This document shows positions 28,236 to 60,260 of a stretch of DNA of 64,000 bases, piece after piece (the first letter of the stretch is position 1; each line of letters starts with the position of its first letter). The DNA is from Desulfomicrobium macestii (GTDB lineage: Bacteria; Desulfobacterota; Desulfovibrionia; Desulfovibrionales; Desulfomicrobiaceae), in NCBI RefSeq assembly GCF_014873765.1, contig NZ_JADBGG010000002.1, forward strand, positions 124,001 through 188,000, written 5' to 3'. The position numbers and the translations under genes were made by a program. The notes under the pieces were generated by a model. The model was given only the letters and a program-made list of their open reading frames with translations. It was not told where the DNA came from and did no database searches.

Positions 28236-28409
28236 CGCGTTCCGGTACTGGCCAGGCAAGGTCTGCCGGAACTCCCTCGCCGGCTTCGTAATGTTTCCCG
28301 GCCTTGAACTTTGGGCAGCGGGCAGGGCACTGTCCGTCACGCGGCCGGAAAACAAACGATGCCTGGCTCTGTCAGACAGCTGGCGACCCCTGCCCGGACC
28401 AACCGCCAT
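28236..28409 (+). repeat. Structured palindromic repeat, copy A
   Basis: First of five related elements. It carries the 5' conserved core GCCGGAACTCCCTCGCCGGC (28265-28284) and the 3' conserved core AACGATGCCTGGCTCTGTCA (from 28356). An inner stem, TGTTTCCCGGCC with GGCCGGAAAACA, lies between them, and an outer imperfect stem pairs GGCCAGGCAAGG with CCTGCCCGGACC. It lies between the ends of two convergent genes. About 180 further non-coding bases to 28590 hold a REP unit. Confidence 0.75.
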
Positions 28410-28496
28410 ACACCGCAGTGAATCCCGGATCAGGGTTGTTCTTCGATAGACGTGCAGGCGATCGGACCAATTCAAAGCCTCGCTCACTGCCGCGAT

Positions 28497-28523
28497 GTCA
28501 TTCCCGCGAAGGCGGGGATCCAT
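28497..28523. repeat. REP-type dispersed palindromic element
   Basis: GTCATTCCCGCGAAGGCGGG followed by GATCCAT; the CCCGCGAAGGCGGG core can fold on itself. It matches the units at 3509 and 39098. Confidence 0.75.
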
Positions 28524-28590
28524 TTCCTCCGAGTCGGCAGGGCATCGCTTCCGGGTGAAGAAGCCCCGACCCTTGCCTTTCAAACAGTTG

Positions 28591-30210
28591 TCAGATTTCC
28601 CGGATGGCCTGGGTCAGTTTCTTCTGGTCGTCCTTGAAGAGTTTGTAATTGATGGAATCTTCCAGCGCCTGGCGGCTGGCCTCGATGATGTTGTAGGATA
28701 CGCCCACCGTGGTCCAGCGGCTCTTTTGATCCCCGGATTCGATGAGCACCCGCACCACGGCCGCTGTTCCGCCGTGCCCGTCTTCGCGGACCGATCCGGT
28801 CAGGACGCGAACCTTGAAGTCCAGGAGACGCATTTCGCCAAGGTTGGGGTAGAAGCGCTCCAGACCCTTGCGTAGCGCGCAGTCCATGGCGTTGACCGGA
28901 CCCTTGCCCGTGGCCGCCGTGTGCTCGATCATGCCGCCGACGCGCAGCATGACCGTGGCCTCGGTGAAGGGTTCCATCCCCTCGGTGAAGACCGAGTCCA
29001 TGATGCGAAAGCTGATCAGCCTGAAATAGTTGCGGGCCCGTCCCAGCACGCGGTTGACCAGGAGTTCGTAGGATGCTTCGGCGGCCGAATATTCGTAGCC
29101 TTGGTCCTCGCGGTTCTTGAGTTCGGTCAGCAGCTCAAGGACAAACGGGTCGCCCTTGTCCAGTTCGAATCCATACTGCTTGGCCTTGAAAAGGATGTTG
29201 GACTGCCCGGCCAGGTCCGAGAGCAGAATACGTTGCTTGTTGCCGACCAGTTCGGGTTCGATGTGTTCGTAGGTGCGCGGGTTGCGGCGTACGGCGGCGA
29301 CATGCACCCCGCCCTTGTGCGTAAAGGCCGACTGCCCCGTGTACGGCTGGCGCTTGAAGCAGCGCAGGTTGGCCACTTCGGCCACAAAGGCCGAGGTGTC
29401 GGTCAGGCGCTCCAGATGCCCCTCGGGCAGGCAGGAATATCCCATCTTGAGTTCCAGGTTGGCGATGATGGAACAGAGGTTGGCGTTGCCGCAACGCTCC
29501 CCGTAGCCGTTCATGGTGCCCTGGACCTGAACGGCCCCGTGCCGGACGGCCGCCAGGGAATTGGCCACGGCCAGCTCACAGTCGTTATGGGCGTGGATGC
29601 CCAAGCGCGCTTCGGGCAGGCGTGTGCGCACCGCGTCCATGATGGCGGCGACCTCCTCCGGCAGGGTGCCGCCGTTGGTGTCGCAGAGCACCAGGAGATC
29701 CGCGCCGGAATCCAGCGCCGTGCCAAGGCAGGAGATGGCGTAGTCGGCGTTCTTCTTGTACCCGTCGAAGAAATGCTCGGCATCGTAGAAAAGCTCTTTG
29801 GCGTGGGGGCGCAGGAAGGCCAGGGAGTCCCGGATGAGTTCGAGATTGCGCTCCAGGGTGATTTTCAGGGCGTCGGTGACGTGGATGTCCCAGGTCTTGC
29901 CGAAGATGGTCATCACCGAAGCGCCGGAATCGATGAGCGCGAGCAGATTGGCGTCGTTCTCCGCCGAGACCTTGGCTGCATGGGTTGAGCCGAACGCCGC
30001 CAGCCTGGCCGTGCTGAGCTGGTACTGCTGCATCTCCGCGAAAAAGCGTTTGTCCTTGGGGTTGGAGCCGGGCCATCCGCCTTCGATGTAGGCCACCCCA
30101 AGCTGGTCGAGCTTGGTGGCGATGCGCAGCTTGTCCTCTGTCGAAAGATTGAGTTCCTCGGACTGGGTGCCGTCACGCAGGGTGGTGTCGTAGATTTGAA
30201 TGGTGTTCAT
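28591..30210 (-). CDS. cimA: (R)-Citramalate synthase
   Basis: A 539-aa enzyme that condenses acetyl-CoA with pyruvate to citramalate, the first step of the pyruvate route to 2-oxobutanoate and isoleucine. The HMGL-like barrel begins IQIYDTTLRDGTQSEELNLS, with later LCDTNGGTLPEEVAAIMDAVR and LGIHAHNDCELAVANSLAAVRHGAVQVQGTMNGYGERCGNANLC, the metal-binding His-x-His motif included. The C-terminal LeuA-type allosteric domain starts near residue 400. The N-terminal pattern and the 539-aa length favour CimA over 2-isopropylmalate synthase. The ATG at 30210 has AGGAATTCA upstream. A leader-peptide attenuator rich in isoleucine codons lies directly upstream, which supports the isoleucine role. Confidence 0.93.
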   Translation of the reverse strand: MNTIQIYDTTLRDGTQSEELNLSTEDKLRIATKLDQLGVAYIEGGWPGSNPKDKRFFAEMQQYQLSTARLAAFGSTHAAKVSAENDANLLALIDSGASVMTIFGKTWDIHVTDALKITLERNLELIRDSLAFLRPHAKELFYDAEHFFDGYKKNADYAISCLGTALDSGADLLVLCDTNGGTLPEEVAAIMDAVRTRLPEARLGIHAHNDCELAVANSLAAVRHGAVQVQGTMNGYGERCGNANLCSIIANLELKMGYSCLPEGHLERLTDTSAFVAEVANLRCFKRQPYTGQSAFTHKGGVHVAAVRRNPRTYEHIEPELVGNKQRILLSDLAGQSNILFKAKQYGFELDKGDPFVLELLTELKNREDQGYEYSAAEASYELLVNRVLGRARNYFRLISFRIMDSVFTEGMEPFTEATVMLRVGGMIEHTAATGKGPVNAMDCALRKGLERFYPNLGEMRLLDFKVRVLTGSVREDGHGGTAAVVRVLIESGDQKSRWTTVGVSYNIIEASRQALEDSINYKLFKDDQKKLTQAIREI

Positions 30211-30293
30211 TGAATTCCTGGCGGTGTCCGCCGGCCGTGTGGCCTGGTGTTCATGGTTGCATGCCCGACGGGCCTGGTTTGTCATTTTTCGCA

Positions 30294-30329
30294 TGAAAAA
30301 AAGCCCCCGGACCTTGCGGTCGGGGGCTT
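30294..30329 (-). terminator. Attenuator terminator upstream of cimA
   Basis: Read on the minus strand, AAGCCCCCGACC (30329-30318) pairs with GGTCCGGGGGCTT (30313-30301), loop GCAA, followed by a T run that ends near 30294. The 5' arm of this terminator (CCCCCGACCG, 30326-30317) is also perfectly complementary over 10 bases to CGGTCGGGGG at 30378-30369 inside the leader peptide gene, giving the alternative antiterminator. Confidence 0.88.
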
Positions 30330-30363
30330 TGCTCTTTTGTGGATATCCGCTTGTGCAGACGCG

Positions 30364-30438
30364 TCACTCCCCCGACCGTGATCCTGGAATCACGGAAATG
30401 AGAATAATAATGGAAATGGGGGTAGCGATGTTTTTCAT
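30364..30438 (-). CDS. Isoleucine-rich leader peptide controlling cimA
   Basis: A 24-codon reading frame (75 bases with stop) that is too short for ordinary gene finding. It reads MKNIATPISIIILISVIPG and then SRSGE; 7 of 24 residues are Ile, with one Leu and one Val, and codons 10-12 are three ATT in a row. AGGAA lies about 7 bases before the ATG. The last third of the gene forms a hairpin of its own (CCGTGAT/ATCACGG within 30395-30376), overlapping the antiterminator arm at 30378-30369. A ribosome stalled on the Ile codons would free that arm to pair with the terminator's 5' arm. This is textbook transcription attenuation and it senses charged tRNA-Ile, the end product of the CimA pathway. 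Confidence 0.87.
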   Translation of the reverse strand: MKNIATPISIIILISVIPGSRSGE

Positions 30439-30456
30439 GTTTGTTTCCTGTCTGCG

Positions 30457-30485
30457 TAGATGAACAATGGAGAATCGATTGTCAA
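30457..30485 (-). promoter_or_regulatory. Candidate promoter of the cimA leader transcript
   Basis: On the minus strand a perfect TTGACA (-35, 30485-30480) is followed by 17 bases and CATCTA (30462-30457) as a weak -10. Transcription would start near 30450, about 12 bases before the leader peptide ATG, so the leader RNA would hold little besides the attenuator. Confidence 0.55.
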
Positions 30486-30545
30486 GCTGATCTTTGTCTC
30501 CCCGGGGTCACGACAAGAACGCCAGCAGGTTGACGGCGGGCTTTT

Positions 30546-31670
30546 TTAGGGCCTGTGCATGGTGTCCAGGACGATTTTTGCCGCGCGCGCTGTGGCCCCT
30601 CCGTTGCCGAGCAGGGAGGGCAGAGTGCCGAGCTGGTCAAGAACGCGGGCCCGGGACGGTGTATTCTCGATCCATTGCGCCACGGCGGCGGCCAGGGCCG
30701 CGGGGTTGGCATCGTGCTGCAGGAAATCCGGGAAGACGGGTTCGCCCAGGATGAGGTTCGGCAGGGAGATGAAAGGCACCTTCACCAGCATGCGCCCCAA
30801 AAGATAGGTAAGGGGGGAAAATCTGTAGGCCACGGCCGTGGGCACTTCGAGCAGGGCCGTTTCCAGTGTCGCAGTGCCCGACGCGGCCATGATGGCCCGG
30901 CAGGAGCGCATGAGTTCGTAACGGGAGGAGCTTTCGACCAGGGTGACCGGAGTTTTTGAGACCCAGCAGCTGGTGATCAGTTCCCGGTCCATGCCAGGAG
31001 CTACGGGCAGCACGAATTCCAGATCGGGATAGCGGACGGCCAGCAGGGCGGCGGCGCGGGAGAAAATGGGCAGCAGGGACGTGATTTCGCGTTTGCGGCT
31101 GCCGGGAAGGATGCCGATGCGGTTGTCGTGGCGATGGACATTCATGATCCGGGGCGTTCTGATGGAGTCTAGCAGGGGGTGGCCGACATAGTCGATGGAC
31201 AAGCCGTGGCGGGCGTAGAATTCGACTTCAAACGGGAGAATGGAGATCAGGCGATCGACGTGGCGGCGCAGGAACGCAACCCGCCCCTCCCGCCAGGCCC
31301 AGAGCTTGGGGCTGATGTAATATACGACGGGAATGCCCAGACGCTGCGCGATTCGGGCCACACGGAAGTGAAAATCCGGGGCGTCGATGACCACCACCAC
31401 ATCCGGACGGGATGTTGCCAGCTGGCTTTCAAGGGTACGCAAGAGGCCCATGATTCTGGGGAGTTGTGCCAGGACTTCGGTGAAGCCCATGACCGACAGG
31501 GCCTCTGTGCACAGCATGGCCTCGACCCCTTCTTCACGCATGGCCGGTCCGGCCATGCCCAGGAATCTGGCATCCGGGCACTGGTCACGCAGGGCCTGAA
31601 CCAGAAGCTGGCCATGCAAATCGCCGGAAGTTTCTCCGGCATTTATCCAGATGGTGGGCGTGTGCGTCAT
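30546..31670 (-). CDS. lpxB: Lipid-A-disaccharide synthase
   Basis: A 374-aa GT-B family glycosyltransferase that joins UDP-diacylglucosamine to lipid X to give the lipid A disaccharide at the inner face of the cytoplasmic membrane. Typical segments are INAGETSGDLHGQLLVQAL, FLGMAGPAMREEGVEA, VVVIDAPDFHFRVARIAQRLGIPVVYYISPKLWAWREGR, LPFEVEFYARHGLSIDYVGHPLLD, ILPGSRKREI and MAASGTATLETALLEVPTAVAYRFS. The start at 31670 begins the conserved domain; the open frame upstream overlaps the divergent VanZ-like gene. It shows that the organism makes lipopolysaccharide. Confidence 0.96.
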   Translation of the reverse strand: MTHTPTIWINAGETSGDLHGQLLVQALRDQCPDARFLGMAGPAMREEGVEAMLCTEALSVMGFTEVLAQLPRIMGLLRTLESQLATSRPDVVVVIDAPDFHFRVARIAQRLGIPVVYYISPKLWAWREGRVAFLRRHVDRLISILPFEVEFYARHGLSIDYVGHPLLDSIRTPRIMNVHRHDNRIGILPGSRKREITSLLPIFSRAAALLAVRYPDLEFVLPVAPGMDRELITSCWVSKTPVTLVESSSRYELMRSCRAIMAASGTATLETALLEVPTAVAYRFSPLTYLLGRMLVKVPFISLPNLILGEPVFPDFLQHDANPAALAAAVAQWIENTPSRARVLDQLGTLPSLLGNGGATARAAKIVLDTMHRP

Positions 31671-31752
31671 GGGATGGCAATAGTTCTTTGGCGTCAAAAT
31701 AACAAGAAGCCCGAACCCTTGCCCTGTCCGGACCTTTGGAATAGGTGAGGCC

Positions 31753-32136
31753 ATGCGTGAAAATACGGTCATCTTCCTGCACAAATTTTTCTGGGCGTTC
31801 TATGTGCTTGCCCTCATCGTCGGTTCCCTGATCCCGGTGAATATGTCCAGCGCACCGGAACAGAGCGACAAGGTTGTTCATTTCCTGGCCTATGCCCTGA
31901 TGGCTTCTTTTTGGCCCTCGTCCTGGAGACGCTCCTGGCTGACGGCGTTCTGTCTTGCCGGCGGACTTGGATTGCTGCTCGAGTTTGCACAGGGGGCGTT
32001 GCCCACGGGGCGTTTTTTCGATCCGTGGGACGCCGTGGCCAACGCCATGGGAGCCGGGGTTGGCGTCGGCGCGGTTTTAGTGTGGTCCCGATCAACGAGG
32101 CGAAATTTGTTTGAACGCATGAGGCGCAGGGCATGA
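31753..32136 (+). CDS. VanZ-like membrane protein
   Basis: A 127-aa protein with three to four hydrophobic segments. The family features DKVVHFLAYALMASFWP and LLLEFAQGALPTGRFFDPWDAVANAMGAGVGVGA (a GR-FD-WD-AN motif) are present. VanZ-like proteins are widespread, mostly uncharacterised small membrane proteins; the teicoplanin link holds only for the founding member. The stop overlaps the next start by 4 bases (ATGA). AGGTGAGGCC precedes the ATG. Confidence 0.88.
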   Translation: MRENTVIFLHKFFWAFYVLALIVGSLIPVNMSSAPEQSDKVVHFLAYALMASFWPSSWRRSWLTAFCLAGGLGLLLEFAQGALPTGRFFDPWDAVANAMGAGVGVGAVLVWSRSTRRNLFERMRRRA

Positions 32137-33083
32137 GCGCGGCTGAATTGTGGGCGCAGATTCTGTGGCCTCTGTGCAAACTGATTGGCCTTGTTTCCGT
32201 GGGACTCTTTGTCGGCAACCTGATCGAGGCCATGCACTGGACCCGTTTCATGGCGCGTCTGGCCAATCCCTTGACCCGTATCGGGCGCATGTGCGAAATT
32301 TCCGCCGCCAGTTTTTCCGTGGCCTTTGTTTCCGGCGTCACGGCCAACACCATGCTGGCCGAAGCGTACGACCAGGGCCGACTGTCCCGCCGTGAACTCA
32401 TCCTCACCAATCTCTTCAACAGCTTGCCGACCTATTTCTTGCACCTGCCGAGCATGATCTTTATCACCGTGCCCATCCTCAAATCCGCAGCTGTGGTCTA
32501 TCTTGGCATCACAGTGGGGGCGGCGTTGCTGCGCACGGTTCTGATTCTTTTCATTGGCCGGATTCTGCTGACCGGGCTTGACCGCTGCCATGCCATGGAC
32601 ATGCCCGCCCAGGAAAAGCTCGTGGCGCGGCAGGTCTTGCAGAAGACCTGGAGTCGTTTCAGGCGACGCATCAAAAAGATCGTGATGATTACCGCGCCCA
32701 TTTATGTCGGTGTTCATTTCATGAACAAGCTTGGCATGTTTGCGGTCGTCGAGCATTTTCTGGCCGAGCACATGAGTGCCATGTCCTGGCTGCATCCCAA
32801 GGCCATGGGCATCATTGTCTTTCAGCTGGCCGCCGAGTTTTCGGCCGGCATGGCCGCCGCCGGCGCTCTGCTCGACGCCGGGTCCATGTCCGTGCGCGAC
32901 GTGGTCATCGCGCTCATTGTCGGGAACGTCCTGTCTTCACCCATGCGGGCCTTCCGGCATCAGTTTCCCTACTACGCAGGCATTTTCAGGCCGAAACTGG
33001 CCTTGGAACTCATCGTTTGCAGCCAGGGTTTTCGCGTGGCCAGCCTGATTTTCTGCGGAGCCGTGTATTATTGGATGAGTTGA
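32133..33083 (+). CDS. Gate/nucleoside-recognition-domain membrane protein
   Basis: A 316-aa polytopic inner-membrane protein. Segments such as SAASFSVAFVSGVTANTMLAEAYDQGRLSRRELILTNLFNSLPTYFLHLP and the C-terminal GNVLSSPMRAFRHQFPYYAGIF place it in the Gate-domain (nucleoside recognition) superfamily related to SpmA/SpmB and to the concentrative nucleoside transporter core. The substrate is unknown and a transport role is an inference. It overlaps the VanZ-like gene by 4 bases, so the two form one transcription unit. Confidence 0.82.
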   Translation: MSAAELWAQILWPLCKLIGLVSVGLFVGNLIEAMHWTRFMARLANPLTRIGRMCEISAASFSVAFVSGVTANTMLAEAYDQGRLSRRELILTNLFNSLPTYFLHLPSMIFITVPILKSAAVVYLGITVGAALLRTVLILFIGRILLTGLDRCHAMDMPAQEKLVARQVLQKTWSRFRRRIKKIVMITAPIYVGVHFMNKLGMFAVVEHFLAEHMSAMSWLHPKAMGIIVFQLAAEFSAGMAAAGALLDAGSMSVRDVVIALIVGNVLSSPMRAFRHQFPYYAGIFRPKLALELIVCSQGFRVASLIFCGAVYYWMS

Positions 33084-33163
33084 GGGGGGCGTTTCGTGAA
33101 GTCGGACCGGGGGGGGAATATATAAAAACCTGGAAAACACGGCTGATTTTGCGATACGCGGCC

Positions 33164-33330
33164 CGCTGGCGGCATGGCCTTGAGCCCCGCCGGAACTCCC
33201 TCACCGGCCTCGTAGAGTTGAATCGTTGCGTGCAGGACAGAAAATCCAGTCGGTACATTCGGCAACGATTCAACAAACGATGCCTGGCTCGGTCAGACAG
33301 CCGACGCGTCTCAAGGCCATGCCGCCAGCG
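33164..33330 (+). repeat. Structured palindromic repeat, copy B
   Basis: The outer arms, 33164-33184 and 33310-33330, are perfect complements over 21 bases (CGCTGGCGGCATGG and onwards). The inner stem GTTGAATCGTTG (33217-33228) pairs with CAACGATTCAAC (33263-33274). Between outer and inner stems lie the conserved cores GCCGGAACTCCCTCACCGGC and AACGATGCCTGGCTCGGTCA. Same orientation as the other copies. Confidence 0.85.
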
Positions 33331-33397
33331 GACCTTGAGACCTGTTGGAACGTTCTCGCTGGCCTCGGAGGGATGAAGCGTTGGGTGCAGGGCAAAA
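33331..33397 (+). repeat. Degenerate 5' half-copy of the structured repeat
   Basis: GACCTTGAGACCTGTTGGAA and the following CTCGCTGGCCTCGGAGGGATGAAGCGTTG resemble the 5' half of copy B in order and spacing, ending in a GTGCAGGGC that matches GTGCAGGAC. No 3' half follows. A matching half-copy lies behind copy C at about 33608-33670. Confidence 0.6.
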
Positions 33398-33440
33398 TAT
33401 AAAAATTTAAAAAACACGGCTGATTTTGCGATACGCGGCC

Positions 33441-33607
33441 CGCTGGCGACATGGCCTTGAGCCCCGCCGGAACTCCCTTACCGGCCTCGTAGAGTTGAAT
33501 CGTTGCGTGCAGGACAACAAATCCAGTCGGTACATTCGGCAACGATTCAACAAACGATGCCTGGCTCGGTCAGACAGCCGACGCGTCTCAAGGCCATGTC
33601 GCCAGCG
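33441..33607 (+). repeat. Structured palindromic repeat, copy C
   Basis: Same layout as copy B. The outer arms (33441-33461 and 33587-33607) are again perfect complements, but the 5' arm has GCGACATGG where B has GCGGCATGG and the 3' arm has CCATGTCGC where B has CCATGCCGC. One G-C pair has thus become an A-T pair by changes on both arms. Confidence 0.85.
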
Positions 33608-33736
33608 GACCTTGAGACTTGCAGGAACGTTATCGCTGGTTTCGGAGGGATGAAGCGCTGGGTGCAGGGCGGAGAATTCAGCCACTACATCCGGCGGTGA
33701 TCCGAGACGCGATGGATGACCGGCAAAATGAGAGCC

Positions 33737-33767
33737 AAAAAAAACCCGGAATTTCCGGGTTTTTTTT
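33737..33767. terminator. Bidirectional intrinsic terminator downstream of pnp
   Basis: AAAAAAAACCCGGAA pairs with TTCCGGGTTTTTTTT across 33737-33767. It serves pnp on the minus strand and anything reading through from the plus strand. Confidence 0.9.
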
Positions 33768-33775
33768 GATTTGAA

Positions 33776-35983
33776 TTAACGACGGCGTGGTCCACCGCGA
33801 TCTCCGCCTCGGTCTCCGCCGCGCGGGCGGTCGTTACGCGGGCGGTCGGAGCGGGGCTGAACCGGTTCGGGTTCTTCACCCAGTTCTTCCAGGATGATGG
33901 CCTTGCGGCTGAGCTTGATGCGCCCGGAAGGCTCGATGTCGATGACCCGGACGCGGATGGCGTCGCCTTCCTGAACCACATCCGTCACCACGTTGACCCG
34001 GTCGCGGGCAAGCTGGGAGATGTGGCACAGGCCCTCAAGTCCGGGCAGGATTTCGATGAACGCGCCGAAGTCCATGATCTTCTTGACGATTCCGTCGTAG
34101 TCCTTGTTCAGCTCGGCCTTCTGGTCGTAGTAGAGGACCATTTCCCGGGCCTTGGCCAGGGAGGTCGAATCCGGAGCGAAGATGGAGATCTTGCCCGAAT
34201 CGTCGATATCGATGTCGGCGCTCGTGGCTTCGCAGATGGCCTTGATGTTCTTGCCGCCGGGTCCGATGACTTCGCGGATCTTGTCCTGGGAGATGTGCAC
34301 GATGTCCATCTGCGGAGCAAACTTGGACAGCTCGCCTCTGGGCGCCGCGATGAGCGCTTCCATCTGGTCGAGGATGTGCACGCGTGCGTCCTTGGCCTGG
34401 TGCAGGGCTTTCTGCATGACTTCGGCCGGGATGCCCGCGATCTTGATGTCCATCTGGATGGAGGTCACGCCGTCACGGGAGCCCGCGACCTTGAAGTCCA
34501 TGTCGCCGAGGTGGTCTTCGTCACCGAGAATGTCGGTCAGGACCAGGTACTCGTCGCCTTCCTTGATGAGACCCATGGCGATGCCCGCAATGGGAGTCTT
34601 GATGGGCACGCCAGCGTCCATGAGCGCAAGGGTGCCGCCGCAGACGGAAGCCATGGAGGACGAGCCGTTCGATTCCATGATGTCGGAGACAACGCGGATG
34701 GTGAACGGGAACGCGTCCGGCGCGGGCAGGACGGGATTCAGGGCCCGTTCGGACAGGGCGCCATGGCCGATTTCGCGGCGTCCGGGAGCACGCAGCATGC
34801 GCGCTTCACCCACGCTGTACGGCGGGAAATTGTAGTGCATGAGGAAGCGTCTGGACGTGTCGCCGGCCAGGGTCTCTATGCGCTGCTCGTCGCGGGTGCT
34901 GCCAAGGGTGCATGTGCACAGGGCCTTGGTCTCGCCGCGCGTGAAGATGGCCGAGCCGTGGGTGCGGGGCAGAAAACCCACTTCCATGATCAGGGGGCGG
35001 ACCGTGGTCAGGTCGCGGCCGTCGATGCGGATCTTGTCCTTCATGATGCGCTGGCGGACGATCTTCTTTTCCAGCTTTTCCATGATCTCGCCGACACCCC
35101 TGACGCGTTCGGGTGTTTCGGCAAATCTGGCTGCCAGGGCTTCCATCAGATTCTGCTTGACCTTCTTCTTGGCATCGCGGCGATCCATCTTGCCGGGCAC
35201 TGCCAGGGCTTCGGTCAGGGGCGTGGTGGCGAGTTCGGCCACGACGGCAATCAGTTCCGCGTCCTCGGCCGGGGGAGTGACCGTGAACTTTTCTCTGCCA
35301 AGTTCCTTGCGCAGCTCTTCCTGAACATCAAGCAGGGGGCCGAGCTGGGCATGTCCCCAGGCCACGGCTTCGGTCATGATGTCCTCGGACAGGAACTGGG
35401 CCCCGCCTTCGACCATGACCACCGCGTCGCGCGAACCGGCCAGGATCATGTTCAACTGGCTTGTGGCGAGCTCGGATGCCGTGGGGTTCAAGAGGAACTG
35501 TCCGTCGCGGTAGCCGACGCGGATGGCCGCGATGGGTCCGGCAAAGGGGATCTCGGAGATGTGCAGGGCCGTGGAAGCGCCGAGCATGGCCAGGATGTCG
35601 GCGGAGCGCTCCTTGTCCGAGGAGATGACCGTGGCGATGACCTGGATCTCGTTGGTGCAGCCCTTGGGGAAGAGCGGACGGATGGGACGGTCCATGAGCC
35701 GGGAGGTCAGGGTCTCGTGTTCGCTGGGGCGGCCCACTTCGCGGCGGAAGTAGTTGCCGGGAACGCGGCCTGCGGAATAGAGCATTTCCTGATAGTTGCA
35801 GGTCAGGGGAAGAAAATCCACGACCCGGTCCAGGGCCTGATGGGTGGCCGTGACCAGAACGACGGTGTCGCCCCACTGCACGGTCACGGCGCCGCTGGCC
35901 TGGAGCGCGAGCTTGCCGTGTTCGATGATGATTTCACTGTCGCCCATAGGGATGGTGCGTCTGGTGGTCTGAAAAGCTGCCAT
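33776..35983 (-). CDS. pnp: Polyribonucleotide nucleotidyltransferase (PNPase)
   Basis: A 735-aa phosphorolytic 3'-5' exoribonuclease of the RNA degradosome type. Two RNase PH domains are seen: the first with [22 protein letters not shown] and [20 protein letters not shown], the second with [59 protein letters not shown] and [24 protein letters not shown] domain ([25 protein letters not shown]) and an S1 domain ([32 protein letters not shown]) follow, then an Arg/Gly-rich tail. The ATG at 35983 follows CGAGGCAAATC. It is the last gene of the rimP-nusA-infB-rpsO-pnp operon and has a long hairpin in its leader. Confidence 0.98.
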
Positions 35984-36031
35984 GATTTGCCTCGTGATGG
36001 TTTGGGCACTCCCTGTCGAGGGCAGCGGGCG

Positions 36032-36094
36032 GCGGGTTTGGTGTTTAGTGCATGGTTCAACCGGGGTTGGGCCATGCACTAAACACAAAACCGC
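36032..36094 (-). promoter_or_regulatory. Long leader hairpin in front of pnp, candidate RNase III processing site
   Basis: GTGTTTAGTGCATGG and CCATGCACTAAACAC are perfectly complementary over 15 bases. The stem extends outwards through GCGGGTTTG/CAAAACCGC with a few mismatches and inwards through CAACC/GGTTG, about 25 bp in all over 36032-36094. It lies between rpsO and pnp, about 50 bases before the pnp start. In E. coli a hairpin at this place is cut by RNase III and then used by PNPase to repress itself. Confidence 0.7.
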
Positions 36095-36125
36095 AGGCAT
36101 GTGATGCTGCCGGGAGCGCGGTTCA

Positions 36126-36158
36126 AAAAAAGGGCAGGCGGGACCATTGGTCCCGCCT
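36126..36158 (-). terminator. Intrinsic terminator downstream of rpsO
   Basis: AGGCGGGACCA and TGGTCCCGCCT pair perfectly across 36136-36158. Minus-strand transcripts then run into GCCC and a T7 run near 36132-36125. It probably ends part of the rpsO transcript while some reads through into pnp. Confidence 0.85.
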
Positions 36159-36167
36159 TAAAGCTGT

Positions 36168-36443
36168 CTACTTGCGCAGACCGAGTTTCGCGATCAGATC
36201 GCGGTAACGCTGAATGTCTTTGTTCTTCAGGTAATTCAGAAGCTGTCTGCGTTTGCCGACGAGCTTCAGCAGACCTGTGCGGGAATGGAAGTCCTTCTTG
36301 TGACCTTTGAAGTGGTCAGTGAGGTACGTAATCCGTTCGGTCAACAGGGCTACCTGTACTTCAGGAGACCCGGTATCAGTTTCGGTTTTGCCATATTCCT
36401 TTACAACTTCAGCCTTGCGTTCAGGGGTTAAGACCACAGCCAT
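36168..36443 (-). CDS. rpsO: 30S ribosomal protein S15 (uS15)
   Basis: A 91-aa primary rRNA-binding protein of the 30S platform. Sequence blocks are [62 protein letters not shown] and [17 protein letters not shown], all typical. It lies between truB and pnp, the conserved bacterial order. GGAGGATAT precedes the ATG at 36443. Confidence 0.98.
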
Positions 36444-36501
36444 ATCCTCCGGTTATCATGTTTCTTCCACCTGACCATATCCACTTTGCGAACCAGAGTT
36501 T

Positions 36502-38703: not shown

Positions 38704-38709
38704 AAAAAA

Positions 38710-38997: not shown

Positions 38998-39042
38998 GGC
39001 CGTGTACCGTTCGTAAATCCAACGTGCTGAAAAAAATGAACG

Positions 39043-39127
39043 GCATGGATTCCCGTCTGAGCAGGGATGACGCACCGGCCGTTCGCGTCACTTCCGTGTC
39101 ATTCCCGCGCAGGCGGGAATCCATGCC
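39043..39127. repeat. Inverted pair of REP-type elements
   Basis: CATGGATTCCCGTCTGAGCA (39043-39062), continuing to 39072, and GTCATTCCCGCGCAGGCGGG (39098-39117), continuing to 39127, are the same unit in opposite orientations about 25 bases apart, so the pair can fold into a large hairpin. The pair lies between infB and DUF503 in the middle of the operon. Confidence 0.75.
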
Positions 39128-39142
39128 TTTTGTTTCCGCTTT

Positions 39143-39168
39143 CTTGAGGACCGCAGCCGGTCCTCAAG
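39143..39168 (-). terminator. Hairpin directly after infB
   Basis: CTTGAGGACCG (39143-39153) pairs perfectly with CGGTCCTCAAG (39158-39168), loop CAGC, 12 bases after the infB stop. No T-run follows on the minus strand, so it is more likely an mRNA-end protector or partial terminator than a full stop within the operon. Confidence 0.6.
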
Positions 39169-49476: not shown

Positions 49477-49685
49477 TGTTTATGACCACGGGGAAATTCT
49501 TGCCGGTGGGCAGGGCGCTGGAGCCTGTGTCCGGGACGGGAAAGGGCCTCTGGCGCAGCCTTTGGAGGGTCTGATGCATGCTGGTCGGCATTTTGCAATG
49601 ATCAGGAAAATGAAGGGTGCGCCAAGCAGGGATTTCCTGCCTCGGCCTTAATTTTCACTACCGCCCAAGTGTAAGGAAGCACGAT

Positions 49686-52249: not shown

Positions 52250-52261
52250 TGGAGGCGAACC

Positions 52262-54034: not shown

Positions 54035-54043
54035 GAAGGGGTT

Positions 54044-54283
54044 ATGCTCATACTCTCTCGTCGCCCCGGAGAAAGCGTGCATGTGGGTGATGACATCAAG
54101 ATCACTATTTTAAGCATCAAGGGGCAGCAGATCAAGCTGGGCCTCGAAGTGCCTGAACACATGCCGGTCTACCGGGAAGAAATCTACCTCAAGGTGCAGA
54201 CCCAGAACGCCTCGGCCCTGGAACTCGACAACAACGATCTGATGATGGCGGCAGCAATATGGACAAGCAAAGACAAACAATAA
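54044..54283 (+). CDS. csrA: Carbon storage regulator (translational repressor) CsrA
   Basis: A 79-aa RNA-binding dimer. LILSRRPGESVHVGDDIKITILSIKGQQIKLGLEVPEHMPVYREEIYLKVQ is the CsrA core with the conserved RNA-contact residues; the C-terminal tail of 15 residues is longer than in E. coli (61 aa). Here it lies between flgL and fliW, as in Bacillus, Desulfovibrio and Campylobacter, where CsrA represses flagellin translation and FliW relieves it. GGAAGGGGTT precedes the ATG. Confidence 0.97.
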   Translation: MLILSRRPGESVHVGDDIKITILSIKGQQIKLGLEVPEHMPVYREEIYLKVQTQNASALELDNNDLMMAAAIWTSKDKQ

Positions 54284-54729
54284 ATTCACGCATCGGGCAG
54301 CTGGTCATCTCCGCGGACAAGACCATCCGGTTTCCTCGCGGCATCATCGGCTTCGAGTCCCTGCGGGAATTCGCCCTGGTGGAGTTCAAGCCCGGAACCC
54401 CCTTTCATTTCCTGCAAAGCATGGAAGTGCCGAGCATGGGCATGATGCTCGCCGACCCTTTCTCCTTCTTGCCGAACTATGAGATTCGGCTGGCCGCGGC
54501 CGAGGAGCGGATTTTGAAGGTGCGCAGCATCCACGACCTGGTCATCCTGGTCAGCGTGACCGTGCCCAAGGGCGATCCGCAGGGCAGCACCCTCAACCTG
54601 ACCGGGCCCATCTGCGTCAATGTCCAGGAGCGCCTGGGGCTGCAGTCCCCGCAAGTGGAATCGGGATTTCCGTCCCAGGTCCTGCTGCGCGATCTTGGAA
54701 ACGAGGACAGGCGCTTGGCCAATTCATGA
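54259..54729 (+). CDS. fliW: Flagellar assembly factor FliW
   Basis: A 156-aa antagonist of CsrA. The FliW motifs RFPRGIIGFESLREFALVEFKPGTPFHFLQSMEVPSMGMMLADPFSFLPNYEIRL and VLVSVTVPKGDPQGSTLNLTGPICVNVQERLGLQ-like VILVSVTVPKGDPQGSTLNLTGPICVN are present. FliW binds either flagellin or CsrA, so free flagellin releases translation control. It overlaps csrA by 25 bases, giving tight coupling. Confidence 0.95.
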   Translation: MDKQRQTINSRIGQLVISADKTIRFPRGIIGFESLREFALVEFKPGTPFHFLQSMEVPSMGMMLADPFSFLPNYEIRLAAAEERILKVRSIHDLVILVSVTVPKGDPQGSTLNLTGPICVNVQERLGLQSPQVESGFPSQVLLRDLGNEDRRLANS

Positions 54730-54730
54730 A

Positions 54731-54764
54731 AAAAAGCCTGGCCGGGTCACCGGTCAGGCTTTTT
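54731..54764. terminator. Bidirectional intrinsic terminator
   Basis: AAAAAGCCTGGCCGG pairs with CCGGTCAGGCTTTTT with one mismatch, loop GTCA, and A/T runs on both sides. It ends the flgF-to-fliW unit and the minus-strand flgM unit. Confidence 0.9.
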
Positions 54765-54783
54765 CAGTCGAGTCGCAAATGGG

Positions 54784-55086
54784 TCAGCCCCAGATGTCAA
54801 GCTCCTGCTTGAGCAGGCTGGCCGCGATATCCTTGCCGCTTGCACCGTACTCTCCCGCCTCTATCCGAGCCTTCACGTCGGCGACCTTGTCGGCTCGCAC
54901 TCCGTCGTTTTCCTGGGCAGCCTTGAGCATGCTCATCTTGAGCCGCGCTTCATCCGAAATGGAGATGCGGTCGGTTCCGCCGTCCGGATTGGCGACGGTC
55001 TTCTGGTGCTCCTGGCGCTGCTGCTCCAGCTGGTCCAGTCGTTGCGATTCGTAGCCGCTGAAAGATTTGATGGTGTTGATCGACAT
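54784..55086 (-). CDS. flgM: Anti-sigma-28 factor FlgM
   Basis: A 100-aa protein. The C-terminal half shows the FlgM pattern DRISISDEARLKMSMLKAAQ, then RADKVADVKARIEAGEYGASGKDIAASLLKQEL, with the VxxLKxxIxxGxY and IAxxLL signature. FlgM binds FliA (sigma-28) and is exported after hook completion, which releases late flagellar transcription. GGCAGGAGCGGAAA precedes the ATG at 55086. It is on the minus strand, separated from flgF-to-fliW by a terminator. Confidence 0.85.
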   Translation of the reverse strand: MSINTIKSFSGYESQRLDQLEQQRQEHQKTVANPDGGTDRISISDEARLKMSMLKAAQENDGVRADKVADVKARIEAGEYGASGKDIAASLLKQELDIWG

Positions 55087-55163
55087 TTTCCGCTCCTGCC
55101 GGGGTTTCCGGCCGCACTGGCTTGATCTTCATGTGGACGACATGCGTCCCCCAAGAACAAGAC

Positions 55164-55580
55164 CTAGAGCATTGTTTCGTTGACCCGGGTCAAGGCAATT
55201 TCCCACAACCGGCGCATGAAAGCATCCTTTTCGCCGTTGGTCAATTCCGCGACACCCTGGTCTGTTTTTTTCAGTATCTGAAGGCCGCTTCCGTCGGACG
55301 GGTACCTGAAAAGCACATCCTGCCCGAATTCCTTGGCCATCTGTGTCTTGATTTCGCGAACGACCGGGTTCGTGGTGTCCGAACCGATGAGGTTGTTCAC
55401 GATCTCGCCTGCGACCTTCTCGACCAGTTGGCGTCTTTTGGCTTCCTTGGAAATGGAAACGGAATCCTCTTGCCCGGCGCGGTCCATGTATTTCTTGAAC
55501 CTGGCAATGCGTCGACCCGCCTCTTGGTGCTGGTCGTACGTGCGCATCACGTTTTTGACGAGAAAGGGATTCACTGTCAC
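55164..55580 (-). CDS. Flagellar-cluster protein of unknown function
   Basis: A 138-aa hydrophilic protein starting at GTG (55580), MTVNPFLVKNVMRTYDQHQEAGRRIARFKKYM. Its middle DSVSISKEAKRRQLVEKVAGEIVNNLI has the same DxVSISxEAK pattern seen in FlgM and in other flagellar proteins. I do not recognise the family. A second GTG at 55574 is also possible. AGTAAGAGGTATGCCCT precedes the start. It is probably co-transcribed with flgM, which follows after 77 bases. A link with flagellar assembly is inferred from position and from the shared SIS-EAK-like motif. Confidence 0.75.
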   Translation of the reverse strand: MTVNPFLVKNVMRTYDQHQEAGRRIARFKKYMDRAGQEDSVSISKEAKRRQLVEKVAGEIVNNLIGSDTTNPVVREIKTQMAKEFGQDVLFRYPSDGSGLQILKKTDQGVAELTNGEKDAFMRRLWEIALTRVNETML

Positions 55581-55693
55581 AGGGCATACCTCTTACTTCA
55601 CCCTATCGGCCACTTGTCCGCGAACTTTAGTTTTATTTGCAAAAAAGTTTGTCCCCGCCCATAGCCCGCCCCAAGCGAACATTGCCCCTCTCC

Positions 55694-55722
55694 TTGAATA
55701 CGCGAGACCTTTTGCTTACACT
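55694..55722 (+). promoter_or_regulatory. Candidate sigma-70 promoter of nadK, leaderless
   Basis: TTGAAT (55694-55699) and TACACT (55717-55722) are separated by exactly 17 bases. The normal distance from the -10 box puts the transcription start at about 55729-55730, the A of the nadK ATG. No ribosome-binding site is seen before that ATG. Confidence 0.6.
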
Positions 55723-55729
55723 CCCGCAA

Positions 55730-56578
55730 ATGGGAAAAATCATCAGCAAAATAGTCATTGTCCATAACGTCGAGAACGAGCTGGCGGCCAACATGGCCCG
55801 GCAAATCCGGCGCTGGCTCGTTGGCGAAGGGCGCTCGGCGCGGATTGTCGCATCTTCCAAGGAAGAGGTCCACTGCGTCTCGACCTGGGGGGATGCGGAC
55901 ATGATCCTTACCCTGGGCGGCGATGGCACACTGCTCGCCGTGGCCCGGGCCGTGCAGGATCTGGGTATCCCGATCCTGGGCCTGAACCTCGGCAAAGTCG
56001 GGTTTCTTACGGAGCTTTCTCCCACGGACTGGCGCGAATCCCTGACGCTCATTCTGCGTGGTGAGTACGACATGTCCCAGCGGCTGGTCATAAGTTTTCA
56101 TGTGCTCCGGCGCGGTCAGGAGTATTACCGGGGTTACGCCATAAATGATCTGGTCATCAGCTGCGGAAGCCTGGCGCGCATGATCAGGCTGGACATGTGG
56201 TACGGCAACGACCACCTGGGCACGGTGCGGGCCGACGGCATGATCGTGGCCACGCCCACGGGCTCGTCGGGTTATTCCATCTCCGCGGGCGGGCCGCTCA
56301 TCTATCCGGAGCTCAACGTCTTCGCCCTGACCCCCATCTGTCCCTTCCTGCACGCCTTCAGGCCCATGGTCCTGCCGTTCGAGAACGACCTGCGCATCCT
56401 GGTCCTCGACGCCGACCCGGATGTCTATCTGACCCAGGACGGCCAGACCGGCGTGGTCCTGGCCGCCGGAGACAACATCTTCGCCTCCAGAGCCGAAAAA
56501 AGGCTCAACCTGATCCGTCCCCTGCATTCCCAATATGCCCACAAACTCAAGTCCAAGGGGTTCGTGCGCGAGAGTTGA
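55730..56578 (+). CDS. nadK: NAD kinase
   Basis: A 282-aa NAD/polyphosphate kinase that makes NADP. The GGDGTLL motif (ADMILTLGGDGTLLAVARAVQ) and the second Gly-rich segment DGMIVATPTGSSGYSISAGGPL are intact, with NDLVISCGSLARMIRLDM between them. Start at 55730 (MGKIISKIVIVHNVENELA) is chosen because the conserved core begins there and the promoter lies immediately upstream; the frame is open for 31 codons further upstream, but that part overlaps the promoter region and looks unlike NadK. Confidence 0.95.
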   Translation: MGKIISKIVIVHNVENELAANMARQIRRWLVGEGRSARIVASSKEEVHCVSTWGDADMILTLGGDGTLLAVARAVQDLGIPILGLNLGKVGFLTELSPTDWRESLTLILRGEYDMSQRLVISFHVLRRGQEYYRGYAINDLVISCGSLARMIRLDMWYGNDHLGTVRADGMIVATPTGSSGYSISAGGPLIYPELNVFALTPICPFLHAFRPMVLPFENDLRILVLDADPDVYLTQDGQTGVVLAAGDNIFASRAEKRLNLIRPLHSQYAHKLKSKGFVRES

Positions 56579-56688
56579 CGGGTTTGTCCTGGACTTTTGC
56601 CTCCTTTTCCGATCGGTTGGCGCGCATCGTCGGCAAAGTCGGCGTTGGCGTCTAAAAATTCTGCAACACTTTCCTTCAAGGACAACCC

Positions 56689-57383
56689 ATGCGTGAACAA
56701 GCCCGCCCCGGCTCAAGGCATTTGCCCCCCGGACTTCATATCATTCACGAAGACCGGGACATCATCGTCGTGGACAAGCCCGCCGGAATGCTGACCATGG
56801 CCACGGAGGCGGAAAAGACGCGTACCGCCTATTACGCCCTGACCGATTACGTGCGCAAGGGCAACGCCAAGTCCAGGTACAGGATTTTCATTGTCCATCG
56901 ACTGGACCGGGAGACTTCCGGGATTTTGCTTTTCGCCAAGACCGAGGCGGCCAAGCGCACCCTGCAGGATCAGTGGGAGGATACCACCAAAATCTACGCT
57001 GCCGTGGTGCACGGGCAAATGGACAAGCCCTCGGGCACGGTCATCTCCCATCTGGTGGAGAGCGGTGTGCACAAGGTCTATTCCACTCGCGACGCCAGGC
57101 TCGGCAAGCTGGCGCAGACCGCCTGGACCGTGGTCAAGGAGAAGGGGGGATATTCGCTTTTGAGGATCGAACTACTGACGGGACGCAAGCACCAGATCCG
57201 GGTGCAGATGGCGGATCTGGGGCATCCGGTGGCCGGTGACCGGAAATACGGAGGCAAGGGGGACAATTTTTCCCGCCTGGCGCTGCATGCCGCTTCAATC
57301 AGCTTCGCGCATCCGTTCTCGGGTCAACGCATGACCCTTGAAGCGCCGATGCCGACCATATTCGCGCAGCTGGTGGGCCGGGC

Positions 57384-57396
<13 letters not shown>
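56689..57396 (+). CDS. RluA-family pseudouridine synthase
   Basis: A 235-aa RNA pseudouridine synthase. The catalytic Asp is in [18 protein letters not shown] near residue 70; [18 protein letters not shown] opens the catalytic domain and [27 protein letters not shown] closes it. No S4 domain is present, so it is nearer the small RluA/RluE-like group than RluB/RluC/RluD. Target RNA and site cannot be told from sequence. Its 3' end overlaps the convergent ABC transporter ATPase gene by 13 bases. Confidence 0.93.
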
Positions 57397-58135
<739 letters not shown>

Positions 58136-58139
<4 letters not shown>

Positions 58140-58816
58140 GCGCGCTTTCCGCTGGTCTTGTTGATGAGTCTGTTCTCAAGGATCTTGAGGGCCTTGGCGA
58201 TGCTCATGGTCATGACCAGATAGACCATGGCCACGGCCATATAGACCTCGAACGCCCGAAAATTGACGGCCACGATCTCCTGGCCGGTCCGCAGCAGTTC
58301 GCCCACGCCGATGACCATCAGCAGCGAGGTATCTTTGAGGCTGATGATGAACTGGTTGCCAAGGGGTGGGATCATGCGTTTGAAGGCCTGCGGCCAGATG
58401 ATGTAGCGCATGGTCTGGGCCCGGGTCAGGCCGATGGAGCGTCCTGCTTCGGTCTGGCCGACATTGATGGACTGGATGGCCCCGCGCACGATCTCGGCGA
58501 TGTAGGCGCCTGAGTTGATGGCTATGACGATGACTCCGGCGATGAGCGGCGGGATGCGCAGACCCACGGCCATGGGTACGCCGTAATAGAGGAACATGGC
58601 CTGCACCAGCATGGGCGTGCCGCGAATGAGCTCCACATAGAGATCGGCGAGCTTGCGGACGAAAAAGGGGCGGGCCAGCTTCATGAGGCCCGTGGCCACT
58701 CCGAGAAGAAAGCCGAAAAACAGGCCGCCGATGGTCAGGTAGATGGTGTACCAGACTCCGCGCATGAGCATGGGCAGGGTGTCGATAACGACGCTTGGTT
58801 CGAATTGAAAGGCCAT
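58136..58816 (-). CDS. Polar amino acid ABC transporter, permease
   Basis: A 226-aa inner-membrane permease of the HisM/GlnP family, about five hydrophobic segments. The EAA-type cytoplasmic loop is [44 protein letters not shown], and [20 protein letters not shown] is the family's N-terminal signature. A single permease gene is present, so it would form a homodimer. The start at 58816 (MAFQFEPS) fits the family length; the frame is open a little further, including the intercistronic hairpin. Confidence 0.94.
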
Positions 58817-58828
58817 GGGTGTCTCGAA

Positions 58829-58855
58829 ATGGAGGCAGGAAGATCCTGCCTCCAT
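58829..58855. promoter_or_regulatory. Intercistronic hairpin between binding protein and permease genes
   Basis: ATGGAGGCAGGA (58829-58840) pairs perfectly with TCCTGCCTCCAT (58844-58855), loop of 3 bases, no T-run. It lies in the 56-base gap between the binding protein stop and the permease start, the usual place of an mRNA-stabilising stem that keeps binding protein in excess. Confidence 0.7.
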
Positions 58856-58872
58856 GGATGATTTAAGAGGGA

Positions 58873-59613
58873 TTACTTGGGCTCGGTGCCGAACCACTTG
58901 ATGTACAGTTCGCGGTAGGCGCCGCTGTCTTTGAGCTTCTGGAGCGCGGCGTTGGTCTTGGCGACCAGATCGCTGCCCTTGGGGAAGCCGATGCCGTAGG
59001 ACTGACCCATGTACAGGGGCCCGACGATCTTGGCCTGACCCTTGCCCACGGTGCGCACGAATTCGGAGATGACAGGGGAGTCGAAGATGACTGCATCGGC
59101 GCCGCCGGCGAGCAGTTCCATAAACATGGCGTCATTGTTGGGGAAAAGTTTCACTTCCTTGGCTCCGGCTTCCTTCTTGGCGAAGTCCTCGCTGGTGGTG
59201 CCGAGCTTGGTGGCCACGATCTTGCCGGTCAGACCCTTCACGTCGGTGATGTCTTCGTTGTCGGCCTTGACCAGGATCAGAAGGCCCGCGTTGTAGTAGG
59301 GGTCGGAGAAGTCGACGACTTCGGCGCGTTCGGGCTTGATGGTGATGCCGGCGATGCCGACGTCAACCTGGCCGGACTGCAGGCCGGGGATGATGCCGTT
59401 GAAGTCCATGGGCTGCAAGTCGTACTCGGCGCCGATTTCCTTGGCTATGGCGTCCCAAAGCTCCACGTCGAAGCCGGTGTGCTTGCCACTCTCGGGGTCC
59501 TTGAATTCAAAAGGCGGAAAATTGGTATCCGTGGCCACGACCAGCTTTTTGGCTGAAGCGGTGGTCGCGCACAGAGCCAGGGCTAAAACGGCGAAAAGCA
59601 GGATGCGTTTCAT
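58873..59613 (-). CDS. Polar amino acid ABC transporter, substrate-binding protein
   Basis: A 246-aa family 3 periplasmic binding protein. Signal peptide MKRILLFAVLALALCATTASA. The mature chain starts KKLVVATDTNFPPFEFKDPESGKHTGFDVELWDAIAKEIGAEYDLQPMDFNGIIPGLQSGQVDVGIAGITIKPERAEVVDFSDPYYNAGL, the family's signature, with an aspartate and arginine pattern expected for amino acid binding. Glutamine-type or another polar ligand is likely, but the ligand is not fixed. It heads the operon; CAAGGAGGCTCC precedes the ATG at 59613. Confidence 0.95.
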   Translation of the reverse strand: MKRILLFAVLALALCATTASAKKLVVATDTNFPPFEFKDPESGKHTGFDVELWDAIAKEIGAEYDLQPMDFNGIIPGLQSGQVDVGIAGITIKPERAEVVDFSDPYYNAGLLILVKADNEDITDVKGLTGKIVATKLGTTSEDFAKKEAGAKEVKLFPNNDAMFMELLAGGADAVIFDSPVISEFVRTVGKGQAKIVGPLYMGQSYGIGFPKGSDLVAKTNAALQKLKDSGAYRELYIKWFGTEPK

Positions 59614-59804
59614 GGAGCCTCCTTGGTGATGGATGAGAAGAAACGGGTTTGGCCACTATGGCGGAAAATCGTCCTTGGCATGGGCCAAAATGACGGAAAA
59701 TGCAAGAAGGTTGGCAGAATCGGAACGATCGGTTCTCTGGGAGGAACGGGCTGGGGGCGCGTGTTGGGGAGGCGGAGGGGTGGTTTGGCGCTGGATGCGG
59801 GGGC

Positions 59805-59980
59805 GCGTGTCGGTGCGGTCCGGGCAAGGTCTGCCGGAACTCCTTCGCTGGCCTCGTAATGCTTCCCGTCCTTGAGCTTTTGGCATCCTTGCGCGCTTTG
59901 TCCGGCACGCGGCCGGGAAGCAAACGATGCCTGGCTCAGTCAGACAGCCGACAGCCCTCGCCCGGACCACGCCGACACGC
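59805..59980 (+). repeat. Structured palindromic repeat, copy D
   Basis: The outer arms 59805-59825 (GCGTGTCGGTGCGGTCCGGGC) and 59960-59980 pair with three mismatches clustered in the middle. The inner stem TGCTTCCCG (59860-59868) pairs with CGGGAAGCA (59914-59922). The conserved cores GCCGGAACTCCTTCGCTGGC and AACGATGCCTGGCTCAGTCA lie between the stems. Confidence 0.8.
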
Positions 59981-60084
59981 TTGAGGCGATGTTGATGGGT
60001 TGCGGCGATGCGGACGGGTTGTGAAGGGAGGGGAGGGTGCTGGGGGCTGTCGGAGGTAGGGATTTGGCGCTGGATGCGGGGGGC

Positions 60085-60260
60085 GCGTGTCGGTGCGGTC
60101 CAGACAAGGTCTGCCGGAACTCCTTCGCTGGCCTCGTAATGCTTCCCGTCCTTGAGCTTTTGGCATCCTTGCGCGCTTTGTCCGGCACGCGGCCAGGAAG
60201 CAAACGATGCCTGGCTCAGTCAAACAGCCGACAGCCCTCGCCCGGACCACGCCGACCCGC
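60085..60260 (+). repeat. Structured palindromic repeat, copy E
   Basis: Nearly identical to copy D and 280 bases downstream of it, same orientation. It differs by scattered single bases, for example CCAGGAAGCA in place of CCGGGAAGCA on the 3' side of the inner stem and CAGACAAGG in place of CGGGCAAGG on the 5' outer arm; these are not compensated, so copy E may be decaying. Confidence 0.78.

Follow-up and report, generated by a model that had tools for sequence, protein, structure and literature searches.

Dispersed hairpin elements of Desulfomicrobium with variable paired stems and a conserved internal loop, a candidate structured RNA family encoded on the minus strand

A stretch of 64,000 nucleotides from Desulfomicrobium macestii (contig NZ_JADBGG010000002.1, positions 124,001 to 188,000 of the forward strand; hereafter the window, with coordinates counted from its first base) contains five long palindromic elements, which raise the question of which strand, and which kind of molecule, selection has been acting on. 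A first-pass annotation of the window had proposed a selected structured RNA or a DNA element forming a cruciform. This proposal was supported and could be narrowed: selection acts on the fold of the window's minus strand, opposite to the strand first described, and an asymmetry of G·U pairs favours a single-stranded minus-strand molecule over a cruciform. The elements form a family with a common architecture, in which compensatory changes in the outer stem (P1) and the inner stem (P3) have occurred at fixed positions. Judging from the sequences, the explanation towards which we lean, on balance, is a multicopy family of structured RNAs of ~175-205 nt, encoded on the window minus strand and read by a partner.

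All five copies were recovered where the annotation had placed them, their ends shifting by a few bases when spans were measured from P1 to P1. The copies, and the two conserved segments (cores) of copy B, named 5' and 3' by the plus strand, are as follows.

Copy A, 28236..28413, minus strand: P1-to-P1 span; outer stem partly decayed, both cores present; of 34 compared P1 positions, 15 are Watson-Crick, 2 G-T and 4 A-C.
Copy B, 33160..33334, minus strand: outer stem near-perfect, with 30/34 compared positions Watson-Crick and 2 A-C on the plus strand (G-U on the minus strand).
Copy C, 33437..33611, minus strand: in tandem with copy B, from which its P1 differs by a compensatory G-C to A-T change.
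Copy D, 59804..59981, minus strand: P1 with 28/34 positions Watson-Crick, 3 A-C and 1 G-T.
Copy E, 60084..60261, minus strand: in tandem with copy D; P1 with 25/34 positions Watson-Crick, 5 A-C and 1 G-T, and thus richer than D in A-C (minus-strand G-U).
Copy B 5' core, 33189..33214, minus strand: forms one strand each of the internal loop and of P2; read on the minus strand, the GARGGAGUU side.
Copy B 3' core, 33276..33301, minus strand: read on the minus strand, the CUGUYUGACYGAG side of the internal loop.

Each copy is a rod of near-constant length that consists of P1, an asymmetric conserved internal loop, a short conserved stem (P2), the variable P3 and an apical loop. On the plus strand this corresponds to an outer arm of ~29 bases, GCCGRAACTCCYTCNCNGGCCTCGTA, an inner region of 59-64 bases, AACGATGCCTGGCTCRGTCARACAGY and a second outer arm of ~33 bases. 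P1 is ~33 bp long and ends sharply, its pairing dropping from 0.83 at index 32 to 0.11-0.58 at index 33 and beyond, P2 is a conserved block of CGT/ACG plus GGC/GCC, and P3 has ~13 bp. On the minus strand the internal loop is purine-rich, with CUGUYUGACYGAG opposite GARGGAGUU, and includes a tandem G·A/A·G mismatch that hardly varies (alignment columns 24-25 with 118-119). The conserved segments, described earlier as single-stranded, are so in their loop part, whereas P2 is formed by pairing between portions of the two; likewise, P1 sequences are largely unrelated from location to location, as had been stated of the stems, except that tandem copies share stems and subfamilies are visible. In the window, the 5' core had 5 matches at <=3 mismatches (0.00 expected from 100 shuffles), and the RNA fold of the plus strand gave z-scores of -8.4 (33164-33330), -6.5 (59805-59980) and only -2.5 (28236-28409).

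That the stems vary and yet remain paired, as the annotation held, was borne out by covariation above chance, both in a larger alignment and in same-locus copies across species. Near-identical or N-containing copies were dropped, which reduced 46 paired copies to 35 for alignment or 36 for comparison of arms. The RNAalifold consensus of the 35 copies had 34 pairs, 23 of which were changed on both sides (14.9 in shuffles), with 198 doubly changed cells (59.9), 95.7% of cells paired (80.9) and a score of 0.444 (0.164); each of these values lay above all 500 shuffles. When the partners were slid by 1-3 columns, scores were <=0.126 and doubly changed cells <=51. Cognate outer arms paired at 0.73 of positions and swapped arms at 0.51, the median pairwise identity of the 5' outer arms in 36 copies being 0.40 and the minimum 0.22. 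Because relatedness can inflate covariation scores, same-locus copies of three genomes, G000, G002 (which we take to be D. baculatum) and G012, were compared. P1 had 107 double Watson-Crick changes in 79 of the 81 pairs (2 dropped at <0.6 identity) and P3 had 38 in 76 pairs (5 dropped for differing P3 register), where the counts are of cells and, as the three comparisons share branches, represent fewer events. The matching used stretches chosen mostly around copies, so that absences are under-seen; each genome comparison additionally contained 2 or 3 matches in opposite orientation. Double changes in P1 were not significantly clustered (15 adjacent, 11.3 expected, p 0.13), and their ratio to single changes, in four classes of increasing divergence, was 3:14, 9:81, 30:110 and 65:88, that is, doubles gained with divergence except from the first class to the second. 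Both observations fit a two-step compensatory change at single pairs.

The strand under selection was revealed by the wobble-type pairs, since A-C on the plus strand is G·U on the minus strand. At P1 positions 9-32 of 136 copies, A-C was found in 163 plus-strand cells and G-T in 29, the ratios being 40:2 in G000, 91:11 in the other Desulfomicrobium and a few further genomes, and 32:16 in the Desulfonatronum-like group. These copies were the non-redundant members of 181 retained by arm pairing from 204 candidates, a separate set having been reduced from 251 to 162; positions 0-8 were omitted from the counts of the 136-copy set, and the outer positions 3, 6 and 7 from the gene-context and fork-context counts given below. 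Single-sided changes between same-locus copies leaned the same way, with 147 between Watson-Crick and minus-strand G-U, 22 to plus-strand G-U and 87 to other mismatches in P1, and 24, 6 and 24, respectively, in P3. In the flanks of the same loci, 262 transitions were of the A-C-making and 287 of the G-T-making kind, and with these nearly even numbers mutation bias is unlikely to be the cause of the P1 asymmetry; a mutational origin is unsupported by the flank counts, and the polarised P1 sample is small, with 10 against 2 changes (P1 was scored in 13 of 19 triplets, the flanks in 29 alignments). Folding gave a concordant picture: the consensus energy of the same 35 copies, aligned separately by MAFFT, was -57.2 kcal/mol for the minus and -34.9 kcal/mol for the plus strand, and the minus strand folded better in 141 of 162 non-redundant copies, whereas the 110-base left flank leaned oppositely (plus better in 130, minus in 30). 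Two positions near the core that are often mismatched on the plus strand (C·A) read as U-G, C-G or U-A pairs on the minus strand, the first in 32 and the second in 19 of the 35 copies, the latter being paired in 25/35 when G-C is included. Taken together, the asymmetry, the lack of flank bias and the better minus-strand fold indicate that selection preserves the fold of the complementary strand, for which RNA is most likely the simplest bearer.

Five is the number of copies in the window and not the size of the family. At <=3 mismatches the 3' core was present at 54 places genome-wide (33 forward and 21 reverse; reversed pattern, 0) and the 5' core at 39, so the common direction of the copies, true of the window, does not extend to the genome. 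At 46 of the 54 places both cores were recognised, their starts 85-90 bases apart, and at the other 8 the 3' core only; several of these 8 lay inside tandem arrays and one was cut by a contig end. Similarly, the claim that all copies are intergenic stood for 34 of 35 G000 arrays, as judged with a crude gene caller, the other one (L032) being inside a called frame. Searching the genome and its relatives with a covariance model, the check proposed by the annotation, gave 57 matches at E<=0.01 in this genome, including 5 opposite-strand echoes of other matches, and 13 of 22 family genomes matched (model R1). Among 16 genomes of Desulfomicrobium, nine hold 18-55 copies, two hold 3 (G010) and 6 (G015), and five, of 2.3 to 3.2 Mb, hold none (G004, G007, G008, G009 and G014). 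Class-wide, 26 of 348 genomes matched, in 8 of 59 genera and all in one order; as <=9 candidates were scored per genome, copy counts from this search are lower bounds. The exact two-core pattern was found at 84 loci in genome_contigs, from which records very near the window's genome were possibly left out, the named records being Desulfomicrobium, Desulfonatronum, a Desulfonatronaceae, two Desulfovibrionales bacteria and one 'Proteobacteria bacterium'; Desulfomicrobium and Desulfonatronum both belong to the Desulfovibrionales. Three further loci, L168 (Clostridia), L213 (Chloroflexi) and L222 (Flavobacterium), were taken as chance matches with unpaired arms (0.30, 0.27 and 0.40 of 30 positions), and in viral_contigs, searched with regard to a phage or virus origin, the pattern had 0 matches.

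Many copies sit at old loci, as suggested by the 31 arrays common to G002 and G012 in the same orientation (31 of 37 in G002); for the 36 arrays of G000, same-orientation partners numbered 22 in G002 and 26 in G012. The locus of copy A holds a copy in G000, G001, G005, G006 and G011 and a degraded one in G013, and no copy was seen in the stretches read from G002, G003, G004, G007, G010, G012, G014 and G015. Two comparisons of filled and empty sites revealed neither a clean boundary nor a clean target duplication. As a rule, the structured repeats of bacteria resemble one another in sequence; here, the long stems change freely so long as they pair, and with each genome holding dozens of copies, many of them long settled in place, the loci amount to parallel evolutionary experiments on one RNA-like structure. 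Counting G·U against A·C pairs, as done above, can reveal the selected strand of palindromic repeats, which is a general problem for such repeats. It was also noticed that several same-locus copies occupy roughly mirrored positions in the complete genomes G002 and G012, e.g. 2.72 Mb and 0.26 Mb, a pattern suggestive of inversion around the axis from origin to terminus.

A loop-presenting scaffold is suggested by three features: rods of near-constant length, stems that vary freely while staying paired, and a loop that hardly changes. In such a model the stems would serve as measured scaffolds that present one conserved purine-rich internal loop, and a trans-acting partner, probably a protein, would read this loop; the uneven spread among sister species, described above, suggests a trans-acting partner. 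The RNA may be transcribed on its own or arise from low-level transcription of intergenic DNA, either being more likely than its being the 3' untranslated region (UTR) of a neighbour, because the constraint on the copies is independent of neighbour orientation. As a guess, the family may help to process or stabilise RNA close to the ends of genes, or it may sequester the partner. A fuller version, which we regard as rather doubtful, is that ~50 dispersed loci per chromosome, mostly directed against replication, encode rod RNAs having their own covarying stems and a shared loop, and that all are read by a single lineage-specific partner, without which the entire set can vanish. The shared loop offers a concrete bait for the partner, and a comparison of gene content between copy-less and copy-rich members of the genus could reveal it.

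Gene context and replication were examined in the same three genomes, with genes called by our own crude codon-score caller (it placed 330 of 666 genes in the direction of the fork; single genes may be wrong). Of 34 scorable G000 arrays, 29 have a 3'-side gene directed into them, as do 54 of 76 arrays of G002 and G012, often from 100-200 bp away. For the latter 76, the contexts were convergent in 36, same direction in 18 and 13, and divergent in 9, compared with 49, 70 and 56, and 79 of 254 background gaps, so that convergent gaps are enriched. By GC skew, the plus strand of the copies runs with the replication fork in 32/36 arrays of G000 (including one with weak skew), 31/37 of G002 and 32/40 of G012; that is, the selected minus strand opposes replication in 95 of 113 arrays pooled from genomes that are not independent, since many loci are shared. 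The terminus was placed by eye, its allowed range giving 30-32/40 in G012 and possibly one more co-directional copy in G002, where the copies switch strand near the skew switch. The bias did not depend on the 3'-side gene (43/54 when it points in, 19/22 when it points away). P1 pairing was 95.3% where a gene runs into the copy and 95.5% where it does not, with asymmetries of 149:30 and 47:7, respectively. In at least 9 of 25 cases a crude search placed an intrinsic terminator in the gap from gene to copy, and on either side of 162 copies sigma-70-like promoters were not enriched relative to shuffles.

Candidate partners were sought among known protein families. Y1-transposase matches occurred in 8 of the 11 genus genomes with copies and in 1 of the 5 without, a loose correlation; no family copy was present within ~1.5 kb of the 30 matches examined (of 47), apart from a chance-like 3'-core match with 4 mismatches near the Y1 locus of L088, and G006, G013 and G015 had no Y1 match despite holding 18, 28 and 6 copies. 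A transposase or RAYT partner was rejected on these grounds. A retron or group II intron derivative was disfavoured by seven copy-bearing genomes in which reverse transcriptase PF00078 was not found, namely G002, G003, G005, G010, G011, G013 and G015 (43, 21, 42, 3, 54, 28 and 6 copies, respectively). As to the possibility, raised by the annotation, that the copies are remnants of a known transposon end, no link was found with Y1 transposases or reverse transcriptases, other transposase families being untested. No integron integrase (TIGR02249) scored above cut-off in the 16 genus genomes; among all 22 genomes one did, in G018 (G018:C16:22588-23514, 401.6 bits), which belongs to another genus of the same family and has one weak family match. 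The Ro60 (TROVE) protein was absent from all 22 genomes, and identity with Y RNA was rejected accordingly.

Several of these results weigh against a partner-bound minus-strand RNA. A plain RNA model does not predict the fork orientation seen in all three genomes; the indifference of P1 constraint to context weakens read-through models and is compatible with single-stranded DNA (ssDNA); promoters were not enriched; none of the four families searched (Y1, PF00078, TIGR02249 and Ro60) strictly tracks the copies; the intermediate copy numbers of G010 and G015 blur an all-or-none pattern; and the static counts in P3 show no strand asymmetry (A-C 19, G-T 21). Folded ssDNA is recognised by a recombinase or a transposase at integron attC sites and IS200/IS605 ends, and by the explanation that we rank next after minus-strand RNA, unlikely as we hold it to be, the minus strand would fold as ssDNA and be recognised by such an enzyme, with copies surviving chiefly where the minus strand is the leading-strand template and hence rarely exposed. 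The strong fork orientation regardless of the 3'-side gene, the constraint independent of transcription context, the tandem and partial copies of a multicopy family, the differences in presence at some loci and the distribution of Y1 matches over the genus all agree with it. However, copies were lacking around the examined Y1 matches, three copy-bearing genomes have no Y1 match, and the genus has no integron integrase above cut-off; many copies occupy orthologous loci, where compensatory changes accrue in place without tract-like clustering, and no clean target duplication was found. Still less probable, in our estimation, is an element in the 3' UTR of the adjoining gene, which read-through would transcribe and which, like ERIC or YPAL, would influence how mRNA is processed or how stable it is, although the inward-pointing 3'-side genes at short distance and the excess of convergent gaps agree with it. 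Gene and copy are separated by an intrinsic terminator in 9 of the 25 cases searched, and neither the pairing of P1 nor its strand asymmetry is weaker where no gene runs in.

Two further explanations rank below these. Long palindromes are known substrates of template switching and of hairpin mismatch correction, and a functionless palindrome kept by these processes at replication would agree with copies that are oriented relative to the fork; we consider it quite improbable, as double changes are not significantly clustered in the manner of copied tracts, the loop is nearly invariant, and copies in the rarer, fork-opposed orientation keep the direction of the asymmetry (9:3 and 3:0, from few cells at partly shared loci). 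A polar DNA signal linked to replication or segregation and read as cruciform or duplex seems to us very improbable indeed: the orientation does track GC skew in G000, G002 and G012, but a cruciform is strand-symmetric and leaves the G·U asymmetry unpredicted, and 5 of the 16 genus members live without any copy.

The elements, for which we favour the RNA interpretation, were compared with known families. Searching Rfam at gathering thresholds, a tRNA alone was found in the window and no copy was matched; at E<=5, no copy in four loci reached a gathering score, and of five matches below theirs one lay over a copy (MIR8670, 29.2 bits against a gathering score of 150). Like Rfam structured RNAs, the elements have covarying helices around a conserved loop, but they match no such family at gathering score. 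In the same searches a TPP riboswitch scored above its gathering score on the minus strand of L038:6954-7045. Among the titles and abstract openings retrieved by genus, order or repeat-family terms, none describes this hairpin family. In integron attC sites, too, the fold of one strand matters and stems vary while structure is kept, the difference being that the present genus lacks an integron integrase above cut-off. The nearest to the family in size, place and hairpin form are ERIC and YPAL. ERIC of Yersinia is described as co-transcribed with neighbouring genes, with an orientation-dependent effect (PMC2229807), and sizes and predicted folds are given for repeats of the ERIC, YPAL and NEMIS type (PMC2267715). 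Both these repeats and our elements are of the ~100-170 bp class, dispersed and intergenic, and form long hairpins (PMC2229807, PMC2267715); the former, however, are sequence-similarity families, several with terminal inverted repeats, whereas here conservation is confined to the loop, one short stem and short flanks, and whole-length likeness is absent. REPs, given as 20-40 bp in PMC3733652, share with the family the state of multicopy extragenic palindromes, and REP-like repeats occur in the window and Y1 genes in the genome; they are shorter, and 0 of 30 examined Y1 loci were flanked by a family copy.

Besides the five copies, the window contains two decayed members.

5'-half remnant, decayed, 33335..33437, minus strand: between copies B and C.
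Third copy, decayed, 33612..33735, minus strand: after copy C, with no recognisable 3' outer arm.

These tandem remnants after B and C had alignment scores of 31.8 and 34.1, the maxima of 300 shuffles being 18.4 and 18.6. On the plus strand 5' of copy A there is an intrinsic terminator (hairpin and T run) at ~28203-28228. Flanking bases recur in many Desulfomicrobium copies, with ~10 bases on the 5' side (TGCGGTACGC type) and ~17 bases on the 3' side (TTGAGG..TGGCGGG type), and the words enriched in flanks comprise this 3' flank and other repeats. Short palindromic repeats of sequence TCATTCCCGCGAAGGCGGGAATCCA are present at window positions 3509-3533, 28498-28522 and 39099-39123 and differ from it by 1 mismatch each; in form they are similar to the CGTC-tagged REP class of PMC3733652, and related words are enriched beside family copies. 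A second palindromic repeat, GGGTGCAGGGGACGCGTCCCCTGCCCGCCGGAGGC, is located at 60318-60352, with similar stretches at many places in the genus. In Desulfonatronum, a number of copies (L154, L158, L159, L165, L233 and others) are nested in a further outer inverted repeat, which differs between copies and is largely complementary, as in GGGCATTTTTGTTCTCA / TGAGAACAAAAATGCCC and TAACTACTCAGC / GCTGAGTAGTTA; this is perhaps an insertion target or an extra stem.

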